Notes under the pieces: generated by a model
Told to the model about the DNA's origin: nothing
Seen by the model: only the letters and a program-made list of their open reading frames with translations
Databases searched by the model: none
In this document: positions 4,170 to 7,695 of the stretch, one piece after another
Layout of the letters: the number at the start of each line of letters is the position of its first letter
Numbering within the stretch: the stretch's first letter is position 1
Assembly: GCA_937923255.1 (NCBI GenBank)
Contig: CALAIL010000046.1
Coordinates: 1 to 7,695, forward strand
DNA: 7,695 bases
Reading direction: 5' to 3'
From: an uncultured Propionivibrio sp.
GTDB lineage: Bacteria; Pseudomonadota; Gammaproteobacteria; Burkholderiales; Rhodocyclaceae
Made by a program: the position numbers and the translations under genes

Positions 4170-4772
4170 TTAAGCCTGAGCCACAGTGACGAGCGCGGGG
4201 CGCAGCACGCGATCGGCGAGCAGATAACCCTTTTGCAGCACATTGACGACCGTATTCGGTTCCTGATCCGACTCGATCATGCTGATGGCCTGATGAAAGT
4301 GCGGATCGAATTTCTCGCCCACCGGGTTGATTTCGCGGAGCTGGGATTTTTCAAACGCCGCGATGAGCTGTTTTAGCGTCAGTTCGGTCCCGGCGCGCAG
4401 ACTGTCTACGCTCGGGTTTTCGGCAGCCAGTCCGGCTTCCAAGCTATCCTTGACGACAATCAGCTCTTTGGCAAATCTTTCAATGGCAAATTTGGAGGCT
4501 TTGGCAATGTCTTCCTGTGCGCGGCGGCGAACGTTTTCTGTCTCCGCCTTGGCGCGCAGCCAGGCATCGTGATGTTCAGCCGCCTTTTCCTCGGCCTGAC
4601 GCAGTTGCGCCGCCAGTGCATCTTCCGTCGGCGTTTGTGCTTCTTCCGTTGGTGGCACGCCTGCCGTAGCGGCGGCTTCTTCCGCCGCTACGTCGGGCGG
4701 AGCGGAAGGCGTTTGCGCGTCGGATGCGGCGGCCTCGTGGCCGTGGTGATGTTTGTGAGGGTGGTTTCGCAT
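4170..4772 (-). CDS. grpE: Nucleotide exchange factor GrpE
   Basis: Cytoplasmic co-chaperone that releases ADP from DnaK so the folding cycle can restart; it also acts as a thermosensor in known cases. The 200 residues show a low-complexity Ala/Pro/Glu-rich N-terminus (about 13-50), a long helical, charged segment (about 51-112) that would form the dimer coiled coil, and a C-terminal beta domain. The family signature [19 protein letters not shown] lies at 175-193. The start at 4772 is preceded by GGAGA nine nt upstream. The first 12 residues are unusually histidine-rich (six His in HPHKHHHGH, residues 4-12). It is the first gene of the chaperone cluster, with a sigma-32-type promoter just upstream. 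The next gene, dnaK, begins 117 bp after it. Confidence 0.96.
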
Positions 4773-4998: not shown

Positions 4999-6336
4999 AT
5001 GGAAAAAATCGGCAAATACGAAATCATTCGTCGCTTGGGCAAGGGGGCGACGGCGGTTGTATACCTCGCGCGTGACCCGAAACTGGAGCGCGAGGTGGCG
5101 ATCAAGCTGATCCGTTTCGAGGGCGACAATGAGGCGGTATCGCGCCGTCTGCGCAAGCTGTTTCAGACGGAAAATTCGATCGGACGCCGGCTCAATCATC
5201 CGAATATCGTCAAAGTCTACGATGCGCATATTGAGGAGGACTACGCCTATCTGGTCATGGAGCCGGTCTATGGCGAATCGGTCGAGCGCTTTTGCGCCAT
5301 CAATCAGCTCCTGCCGATGCATCGCGCCATAGAAATCATCTTTAAATGCTGTCTGGCGCTGGATCACGCATTCCGGCAGGGCGTTGTGCACCGCGACATC
5401 AAACCGGCCAATATCCTGATCGATCAGGATGGCAATCCCAAGATTACCGATTTTGGCCTGGCGCTTAATTTGAACAAGGATCGCAACAAGGATTCGACCT
5501 TCGTCATGGGGGTTGGATCGCCGTCTTACATGTCGCCGGAGCAGATCAAGAATTACCCGCTCAACCAGAAGACGGACCTCTATTCGCTGGGCGTCGTGCT
5601 TTTTCAGTTGCTGACTGGCCGCCTGCCGTTTCGTGCAAACAATGCCGGCGCGCTGGTTTATAAGATCGTCAATACGGATCCGCCTTCCGTCTGTGCGCTC
5701 AACCCCAACCTGCCGGAAAAACTCGATCCGATCCTGCGCAAGGCGCTGGAAAAGGATCTCTACAATCGTTACCGCAACGGCGCCGAATTTGCCAAAGATC
5801 TGTCGGCGGTGCGTTACAAGATTTTCGATGAGAACGATACCGAGCTCGATCTCTCCCGCTTCGGACAGCTGCGCCGGCTGGCTTTTTTCACCGAATTTGA
5901 GGATATTGAGATTTGGGAAGTGCTGCGCATCAGCGTCTGGCGCGACTTGGCTGAGAGGGTGACGCTGATCCACGAAGGAGAGCAAAGCCGTCTGTTCGGC
6001 ATCATCATTGATGGACAGGTGGAAATTTCCATCGAGGGCAAAGCAATCTGTCGGGCGGGCGCGGGCGAGGTGATCGGCGAAATGGCGTTTTTGCACCCGC
6101 GCGACAGCACGCGCTGGGCGACGGTGACGACACTGGCGCCGACGCTGTTTCTGGAAATCAACAGCGCAGCGCTCGAGCTGAGTTCCGAAGAGGTGCTGGC
6201 GCGCTTCCGCGATGTGCTCATTGCCAAGGTGCTCGATCGCCTGCGCACGGCCAATACGGCGCTTGCCCAGTATGGACAGCCCGCCGTCAAGGGCAAGCAG
6301 AATTTTTGCGTTGATCTCGAACTGGCGCCGCTCTAG
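4999..6336 (+). CDS. Ser/Thr protein kinase with C-terminal cyclic-nucleotide-binding-type domain
   Basis: Predicted soluble Hanks-type kinase of 445 residues that phosphorylates Ser or Thr in unknown targets. The catalytic domain (about 7-272) has all key elements: glycine loop LGKGATAVV (13-21), VAIK with Lys36, probable helix-C Glu58, HRDIKPAN (131-138, catalytic Asp133), DFG (151-153), activation-segment end SPSYMSPE (174-181) and TDLYSLGVVL (192-201). A C-terminal segment (about 295-405) looks like a cAMP-receptor-type domain: IDGQVEI (337-343), then GEVIGEMAFL (356-365) with Glu361, and STRWATV (370-376) with Arg372. These match the ribose- and phosphate-contacting Glu and Arg of the phosphate-binding cassette. 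No transmembrane or PASTA segment is visible, unlike PknB-type kinases. The inference is that a nucleotide or other ligand controls the kinase. The ATG at 4999 has no clear Shine-Dalgarno sequence, but the kinase domain begins at residue 7, so an upstream start is unlikely. The gene is divergent from grpE; no partner phosphatase is visible. Confidence 0.9.
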   Translation: MEKIGKYEIIRRLGKGATAVVYLARDPKLEREVAIKLIRFEGDNEAVSRRLRKLFQTENSIGRRLNHPNIVKVYDAHIEEDYAYLVMEPVYGESVERFCAINQLLPMHRAIEIIFKCCLALDHAFRQGVVHRDIKPANILIDQDGNPKITDFGLALNLNKDRNKDSTFVMGVGSPSYMSPEQIKNYPLNQKTDLYSLGVVLFQLLTGRLPFRANNAGALVYKIVNTDPPSVCALNPNLPEKLDPILRKALEKDLYNRYRNGAEFAKDLSAVRYKIFDENDTELDLSRFGQLRRLAFFTEFEDIEIWEVLRISVWRDLAERVTLIHEGEQSRLFGIIIDGQVEISIEGKAICRAGAGEVIGEMAFLHPRDSTRWATVTTLAPTLFLEINSAALELSSEEVLARFRDVLIAKVLDRLRTANTALAQYGQPAVKGKQNFCVDLELAPL

Positions 6337-6747: not shown

Positions 6748-7599
6748 ATGATGTATTCCCTGCTTGCCATTGTGATCTGGGCCAGTTCCTTTGTCGCGGG
6801 CAAATATTCCTATACCGTCGCCGACCCCGTACTGACGGTGCAGTTTCGTCTGGTGGTTGCAGCGCTGATCGTTGCGCCCACCTTTGGCGAATGTTATCGC
6901 GCCGTTCCCGTGCATTTACGCAGGCGTCTGTGGCTGCTGGCGTTCATGAATTTTCCGTTGGTGTACCTCTTGCAGTTCATCGGCCTAAATTACACTTCGG
7001 CCGCCAGCGCGGCGACAATCATCGGCGCCGAGCCGGTGCTGTCGACGCTGATCGGTTATCTCTTTTTCAAACAACGCACGCATCTGCTGAACTGGCTGAG
7101 CGCCGTGGCAGCCTTTGCCGGCATCGGGCTGATCGTTCTGGGCGGTGAACGCGGCGGTGAAATCAGCCTGTTTGGCAGCCTGCTGGTTCTCGGCGCGGGG
7201 ATTAGTTTTGTCTTCTGCCTGTATCTGGGGCGGGATATCATGCAAAGCATTTCCGCCAAGACCTATACCGTGACGACCCTGGTACTGGGGGCGTTGTTCT
7301 GTCTGCCCTTTACTTTTCTGCTGACGCAAAACTGGCATATCACGCCCAATCCCGGCGGGGTCTTCGCCCTGTTTTATCTCGCCATTGCCTGTAGCTGGCT
7401 GGCGATCCTTTTATGGAATAAAGGATTGCGGGCGATTCCTGCCAGCGTGTCCGGTATTCTGATTGCCCTGGAGCCAGTACTGGGCGTGCTGTTTGCCATT
7501 GTGATCCTGGGGGAAAGCCCGTCGTCGATAACGGCCTGCGGCATGCTGCTGACGATGACCGCTACTGCCGTATGCGTGTGGTACGGGCAAAGGCGATAG
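6748..7599 (+). CDS. EamA/DMT-family membrane transporter
   Basis: Predicted inner-membrane carrier of the drug/metabolite transporter superfamily, which includes exporters of amino acids and other metabolites; the substrate cannot be told from sequence. The 283 residues contain about ten hydrophobic segments (roughly 4-18, 27-46, 60-78, 84-106, 114-131, 140-160, 172-193, 204-223, 232-252 and 258-278). The two-fold internal repeat of the family is visible: EPVLSTLIGYLFFKQ (95-109) corresponds to EPVLGVLFAIVILGE (242-256). The early WASSFVAGK (11-19) is also typical. The start is uncertain between adjacent ATG codons at 6748 and 6751, as only a purine-rich AAGAAAG lies 14 nt upstream; an in-frame stop at 6706 excludes a much longer N-terminus. 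It stands alone on the plus strand. Its TAG stop lies within the left end of the Correia-like element. Confidence 0.9.
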   Translation: MMYSLLAIVIWASSFVAGKYSYTVADPVLTVQFRLVVAALIVAPTFGECYRAVPVHLRRRLWLLAFMNFPLVYLLQFIGLNYTSAASAATIIGAEPVLSTLIGYLFFKQRTHLLNWLSAVAAFAGIGLIVLGGERGGEISLFGSLLVLGAGISFVFCLYLGRDIMQSISAKTYTVTTLVLGALFCLPFTFLLTQNWHITPNPGGVFALFYLAIACSWLAILLWNKGLRAIPASVSGILIALEPVLGVLFAIVILGESPSSITACGMLLTMTATAVCVWYGQRR

Positions 7600-7691
7600 T
7601 GGCTTCCTTTGCCAACATACGGCGTTGGCTTCGCCTTGCCGTACTGTCAGCGGCTCGCCGCCTTGTCTTTTGGCAAAGTTAAGCCGCTATA
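7595..7691. mobile_element. Correia-like (CREE-type) miniature inverted-repeat element
   Basis: The two ends are inverted repeats. The left end (7595-7615) and the reverse complement of the right end (7691-7670) agree at 18 of 22 aligned positions, including nine perfect inner pairs CTTTGCCAA/TTGGCAAAG (7607-7615 and 7670-7678). Inside are two hairpins: TACGGC/GCCGTA (7618-7623 and 7638-7643) and GCGG/CCGC (7650-7653 and 7658-7661). The interior order TACGGCGTTG, CGCCTTGCCGTACT, GCGGCT, GCCTTGTC and the end CCGCTATA closely follow the Correia repeat-enclosed element of Neisseria as I remember it. Those elements are non-autonomous, insert at TA and can carry promoters or be cut by RNase III. 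The assignment needs an alignment. Transcripts of the EamA gene would end in this folded structure. Confidence 0.7.
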
Positions 7692-7695
7692 TATT

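Follow-up and report, generated by a model that had tools for sequence, protein, structure and literature searches.

A Correia-type element with a distinct inner end closes the EamA transporter gene of a probable Dentiradicibacter-like bacterium

Introduction

A 97-bp element closing an EamA transporter gene is homologous, by sequence comparison, to the Correia elements (CREE, or nemis) of Neisseria gonorrhoeae, and lies in DNA that likely comes from a bacterium of the Rhodocyclaceae. It was found near the end of a 7,695-nucleotide stretch of DNA, referred to here as the window. The explanation that we favour, and consider probable, is that a Correia-type element, with an inner end of a form absent from the copies compared, was derived from Neisseriaceae, was inserted by a transposase acting in trans, and now gives the EamA gene its stop codon in a Dentiradicibacter-like host. 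The Correia kind of element is already known; what is new is the form of the inner end and the host family.

In the passages concerned, CREE have been called unique to Neisseria (PMC5039591, 2016), the Correia repeat has been described as found only in Neisseria (PMC2649163, 2009), and two reviews (PMC2229807, PMC10969869) enter CREE under Neisseria. Among the titles and abstract openings of the open-licence literature, no report of the element outside Neisseria was found.

Results

Features of the window and its host

The features referred to in the text are as follows.
4170..4772, minus strand: grpE, used as host marker (Pfam PF01025)
4999-6336: protein kinase with a C-terminal cyclic-nucleotide-binding domain, between grpE and the EamA gene (Pfam Pkinase and cNMP_binding)
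6748..7599, plus strand: EamA-family transporter gene, 283 aa (open reading frame; Pfam PF00892)
7595..7691, plus strand: Correia-type element with its flanking dinucleotides (GA left, TA right), 97 bp
7597..7599, plus strand: TAG, EamA stop codon and first three bases of the element
7597..7615, plus strand: left terminal inverted repeat, TAGTGGCTTCCTTTGCCAA
7617..7667, plus strand: conserved core, 9 bp short between two GTACT repeats
7670..7689, minus strand: right terminal inverted repeat, TAGCGGCTTAACTTTGCCAA (read from 7689 back to 7670)

The host was assigned from the proteins of the window alone. GrpE is 97% identical to that of Dentiradicibacter hellwigii (Rhodocyclaceae) and 93-100% identical to a few metagenome proteins, some of them partial, with named Propionivibrio entries next at 72-79%. 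The contig thus likely belongs to a Dentiradicibacter-like member of the Rhodocyclaceae, in agreement with the initial annotation, which had proposed a betaproteobacterial host other than Neisseria. We take the restriction to Neisseria to be an error in the published account and not a defining trait of the element.

Anatomy of the element

The initial annotation had described an element of ~97 bp with Correia-like ends and core, and the inverted repeat, the fold and the core model score reported below all agree with this description. ATAGTGG lies at 7596-7602 and CCGCTATA at 7684-7691, and the two terminal repeats listed above pair with each other. The stretch 7594-7693 is predicted to fold with −44.9 kcal/mol (z −5.44), and 0 of 200 shuffled sequences folded as well. 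Any target duplication of TA is imperfect because the left flank is GA (7595-7596) and the right flank TA (7690-7691). A core-model search found one copy of the core family in the 7.7-kb window, the sole copy known from this host, and the element sits within the last 101 bases of its 7695. No Rfam family reached its gathering score for the element. The window has no exact copy of the DNA uptake sequence and two matches with one mismatch, against 0.62 expected.

Homology to Correia elements

A blastn search with the element against 72,556 plasmid records gave matches in two records only, both from N. gonorrhoeae, one of which held 115 matching places at E≤1 (best 7.4e-10). The two records (NZ_CP119140.1 and NZ_CP119142.1) are ~2.17 Mb long and are evidently chromosomes misfiled as plasmids. 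The search that counted the 115 places found none in a Conservatibacter flavescens genome, and no match to the element was obtained in 50,697 phage records. The alignment with CREE that the initial annotation had called for was significant over the full length of the element and comprised 22 gonococcal copies, 18 of the short form and 4 of the 154-bp form. An HMM built from 52 Neisseriaceae and gonococcal cores, with the window left out, scored the window at 42.2 bits (E 4.2e-13), against a maximum of 9.7 bits in 200 shuffled windows.

The window element and CREE have in common the outer ends TATAGYGG, a colinear core, the inverted-repeat layout and a strong hairpin. The inner end is CTTTGCCAA in the window, whereas gonococcal copies carry AACAAAAA or AAATTTAAA. 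CTTTGCCAA was absent from all copies compared, so the suggestion that the inner end departs from the Neisseria form is confirmed as a distinct form of end repeat. Of the 26-bp CREE repeat TATAGTGGATTAA, only the outer part is matched by the window (GATAGTGGCTT, TATAGCGGCTTAAC); the inner part is unlike CREE, yet matched between both arms. The core is conserved, directional and colinear with that of CREE, in agreement with the initial annotation, and 9 bp are missing between the two GTACT repeats. Through this loss the element measures 97 bp with its flanking dinucleotides and falls outside the reported CREE length classes of 104-108, 153-157 and 69-73 bp (the classes as given in the part of PMC2649163 concerned); it corresponds to the 104-108 class shortened by 9 bp. 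CREE further differ in showing TA target duplication, where the window has GA on the left, and in their host, Neisseria.

Two short-core copies from Neisseriaceae-family genomes, L260 (G1282) and L262 (G746), show the same 9-bp loss. Their ends are TATAGTGGATTAACTTTAAA, with AAACC at the inner end where the window has GCCAA, and their cores are 81-82% identical to that of the window over the matched part. By description alone, the element can also be likened to ERIC, RUP and similar miniature elements, which the pertinent text of a review portrays as short, non-autonomous sequences that have TA ends, bear inverted repeats and give rise to highly paired transcripts (PMC2229807).

A wider family of cores across the order

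The initial annotation had suggested that the element extends the host range of its family. This was borne out, and the reach was wider than thought, copies of the core flanked by other ends being present across the order. The family of genome G637 is called Rhodocyclaceae-like here; the closest GrpE matches of G637 are from Sulfuricystis multivorans (88%) and from entries named 'Rhodocyclaceae bacterium'. A search with the whole element in 249 genomes of this family, with the best three candidates per genome scored, gave matches at E≤0.01 in 18 genomes. Nine of the 21 places found were elements (≥45 bits with the model described next). The other 12 were taken as chance matches: 11 were scored, all at ≤13.5 bits, and L102, which fell outside that scoring, repeats the stretch seen in L101. 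Among 125 genomes of the G324 family, one matched, at two places.

A model of the core only (R1) was built on sequence only from 14 cores, including that of the window, and its training rows match by construction. Over 37 sources it gave ≥45 bits for elements with a full core and ≤13.5 for chance loci; a 154-bp gonococcal copy scored 32.4 bits over part of the core. At E≤0.001, R1 found the core in 122/395 Rhodocyclaceae-like genomes (13 candidates scored per genome) and in 49/210 genomes from the order to which G324 belongs (25 per genome), a sample that contains genomes of the Neisseriaceae and G637 families. Copy numbers from these searches are lower bounds. No match was obtained in 147 genomes drawn from the class; an empty result of this kind is not telling by itself, and the same model did match in the family and order samples. 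A core pattern run on viral contigs returned 55 loci, none of which was recognized as an element when read with its flanks, and most of which look like coding sequence common to related contigs; two other core patterns gave no loci.

The Rhodocyclaceae-like elements, for which we found no name, have a conserved core, matched ends and a length of ~100 bp in common with the window element. They differ in having mostly ATTCC-type ends and TNA duplications, and 74/83 carry TTGTCG or TTGTTG in the 5′ core.

Matched ends and target duplications

The arms were analysed in 181 distinct copies with a core score ≥28 and enough flanking sequence, ends being counted as matched at a score ≥9. Matched ends were present in 160/181 copies, against 3/181 with shuffled flanks: 23/26 gonococcal, 42/43 Neisseriaceae, 77/89 Rhodocyclaceae-like, 16/21 from the order sample and 2/2 from the G324 family. 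The gonococcal and many of the Neisseriaceae copies were found by the whole element, so that the search itself partly selected their ends; most of the copies from the Rhodocyclaceae-like and order sets came from searches with the core model alone. The ends of the elements match each other within copies and differ between lineages. Among the end types are TATAGTGG, TATAGTGAATCGC, TATAGTGATTCC, ATTCC, AGAGCCGCTAACAAAACC and GC-rich forms, and six copies of the order sample (L157, L169, L173, L174, L176 and L178), with a weaker core match, show a further AGAGCNGCTAACAAAAC-like type that resembles the CREE end TAGTGGATTAACAAAAAC.

By their ends, 46 of the 181 copies were of the ATTCC type, 61 of the TAG type and 74 unclassed. 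The ATTCC type has an identical 3-mer on both sides in 29/46 copies (shuffle mean 9.1, maximum 18 in 2000), namely TAA (10), TGA (9), TTA (6) and TCA (4), or TNA; the A and T adjoining the element are part of the ATTCC/GGAAT ends, and the shuffles keep them. Copies of the TAG type have TA on both sides in 52/61 cases, where the TA could also belong to the ends. In a 12-row alignment, 22/31 predicted pairs were changed on both sides, as expected of matched ends. When aligned arms were compared within single genomes, arms of the same copy were more alike than arms of different copies (p<0.05) in three of eight genomes (G1051, G1239 and G991) and not in the other five; concerted change of the two arms of a copy is a possibility, not a result.

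Placement of the window element

Of the copies compared, those from Neisseriaceae come closest to the window element, in its core as well as in both end repeats. Collapsing 200 copies, the window among them, left 157 distinct cores for comparison with that of the window. All of the 30 nearest were Neisseriaceae or gonococcal, the best at 0.962 over 52 columns (L264), against 0.849 for the best of 83 Rhodocyclaceae-like cores. The 5′ core form GCGTTG occurs in 33/35 Neisseriaceae, 16/17 gonococcal, 2/83 Rhodocyclaceae-like, 3/21 order and 0/1 G324-family cores. Scored separately from the core, the right arm reached 14.5 with L246, a Neisseriaceae arm, and no more than 7.5 with any of 178 Rhodocyclaceae-like arms; for the left arm the best values were 11.0 with a Neisseriaceae arm (L263) and 9.5 with a Rhodocyclaceae-like arm.

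Sorting by two models gave the window 42.2 bits with the Neisseriaceae HMM and 28.5 with a Rhodocyclaceae-like HMM. Held-out rows were assigned to the Neisseriaceae HMM in 52/52 Neisseriaceae and gonococcal cases and in 2/83 Rhodocyclaceae-like cases (L095 and L097). The window prefers the Neisseriaceae HMM by 13.7 bits, less than any of the 52 held-out Neisseriaceae rows (minimum 14.7) and similar to the margins of the two exceptions (11.8 for L095, 13.4 for L097); we infer that the shorter core of the window may reduce its margin. A core tree, built on few columns and with 109/153 inner branches open, contains a set of 64 rows (SH-aLRT 99) formed by the window together with 52/52 Neisseriaceae and gonococcal rows, 9 from the order and 2 that are Rhodocyclaceae-like. 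In clade tests, placing the window within the Neisseriaceae copies (p 0.645) was no more rejected than placing it outside them (p 0.606).

The window element matched 31 of 83 Neisseriaceae-family genomes at E≤1e-6 (10 candidates scored in each), which is a lower bound: two of the 52 genomes lacking a match, G536 and G688, contain elements found by R1. No near-identical donor copy was found in these 83 genomes, the best places covering nearly the full query being ~75% identical. The family of G536 was taken as Neisseriaceae because classical CREE ends occur in G536, as does, in its copy L248, a Neisseria uptake motif.

The closeness of its core and both ends to Neisseriaceae copies makes transfer of the element from a Neisseriaceae donor likely. 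The strongest alternative, which we consider unlikely, is vertical inheritance within the lineage of the host: the element would be native and belong to the wider core family, and its TATAG-like ends and Neisseria-like core would have been retained or have arisen by convergence. Such a history would fit the presence of the core family in 122/395 Rhodocyclaceae-like genomes, the clade test that allows the window outside the Neisseriaceae copies, the two cores of Neisseriaceae type among the 83, and the TATAG ends (TATAGTG) found in two Rhodocyclaceae-like genomes, G1051 and G1067. It is opposed by the other 81 cores, which were sorted away from the Neisseriaceae model, by the arms of the window, both of which match Neisseriaceae arms best, and by the ends of L095 and L097, which are unrelated.

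The EamA gene and its stop codon

The open reading frame 6748-7599 stops at 7597-7599, so that the left end of the element does provide the EamA TAG, as initially annotated. Two EamA proteins from other assemblies end at the same residue as that of the window (...WYGQRR): P0001, with one difference over 283 shared residues (68 member sequences, 50,365-base contig), and P0007, which is 95% identical and spans 58% of the query. The three nearest relatives from sister lineages, 75-80% identical, run beyond the window end by 6 (P0002), 5 (P0003) and 9 (P0030) residues, in line with the earlier idea that insertion may have reset the C-terminus; more distant tails vary, P0004 (63%) being 2 residues longer and P0017 (49%) having the same 283 aa. 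At the protein level, this fits an insertion before the split between the window and P0007 lineages and after the other EamA relatives had branched off. The longest contig is 8314 bases for both P0002 and a GrpE, P0079; the two may share one contig with conserved gene order.

The shared end of P0001 and P0007 also bears on a misassembly, in which a Rhodocyclaceae chromosome would have been joined to a Neisseriaceae repeat near the contig end. The position of the element in the last 101 bases of the window would agree with such a join, but a stop is needed here in other assemblies too, and the CTTTGCCAA end is absent from the Neisseriaceae copies compared; we regard this account as very improbable. 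The strong fold directly at the 3′ end of the EamA gene might suggest an intrinsic terminator of the usual kind, or a hairpin that resembles CREE by chance. This account is refuted by the significant end-to-end alignment with CREE, a similarity far above shuffled controls, and has next to nothing to recommend it: no T run follows the repeat, and a scan of 7300-7695 gave three terminator sites, none within the element, and no promoter-like site.

The nearest EamA relatives that carry a name come from Gammaproteobacteria (Conservatibacter flavescens 58%, Moraxella macacae 52%, Pasteurella ~49-50%), and the name Dentiradicibacter is absent among the 66 EamA matches listed. For these two reasons the transporter gene itself may have been acquired horizontally.

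Amplification and mobilization

A 17-bp end repeat, TTCCNTTTCCAGTTCAT, has 92+88 matches in the 2.7-Mb Rhodocyclaceae-like genome G1239 (L179-L191), against none for the backwards-pattern control, and 37+24 matches in G1082. The element thus seems to be highly amplified in G1239. Among the matches listed, no facing pair of TTCCNTTTCCAGTTCAT 0.7-2.5 kb apart, as an autonomous partner would show, was noticed by eye, and no transposase was found in this end-repeat search. The relatives with ATTCC-type ends, for which the TNA duplication is observed, may be mobilized by an IS5-family, IS1031-like transposase. As stated in the relevant section of a 2009 paper, the mechanism that mobilizes CREE was undetermined at that time (PMC2649163).

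Discussion

Under the favoured explanation of a Neisseriaceae-derived element, a transposase supplied in trans would have inserted the acquired element at a TA, of which the left flank now reads GA, and the EamA tail would have been shortened by about 5-9 residues. The transcribed 3′ hairpin might then be a substrate of RNase III, by analogy with Neisseria, where processing of CREE transcripts by RNase III is reported in the part of PMC2649163 concerned. A Neisseriaceae-type copy in another family breaks the published host limit and points to exchange among mouth bacteria.

More broadly, the CREE core is, on the favoured explanation, one branch of a set of order-wide elements of ~100 bp, each combining a conserved core with matched ends specific to its lineage. 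That Correia elements are the Neisseriaceae branch of such a superfamily, in which a core with exchangeable, arm-matched ends switches transposases and crosses families, as in the present oral host, is a reading to which we give even odds, the switch of transposase being conjectural. If this reading is true, the core has survived by changing its transposase, with TA or TNA duplications. With legible 3-bp duplications and a genome that has 180 end-repeat matches, the wider core family offers new material for the hunt for a transposase and for work on the role of the conserved core.

According to the portion of the published description concerned, D. hellwigii is a member of the Rhodocyclaceae isolated from a human root canal, and its genome has unexpectedly high identity in stretches common with Cardiobacterium valvarum, an oral gammaproteobacterium, for which the authors suggest horizontal transfer (PMC11881992). 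Repeats in common could contribute to these stretches.
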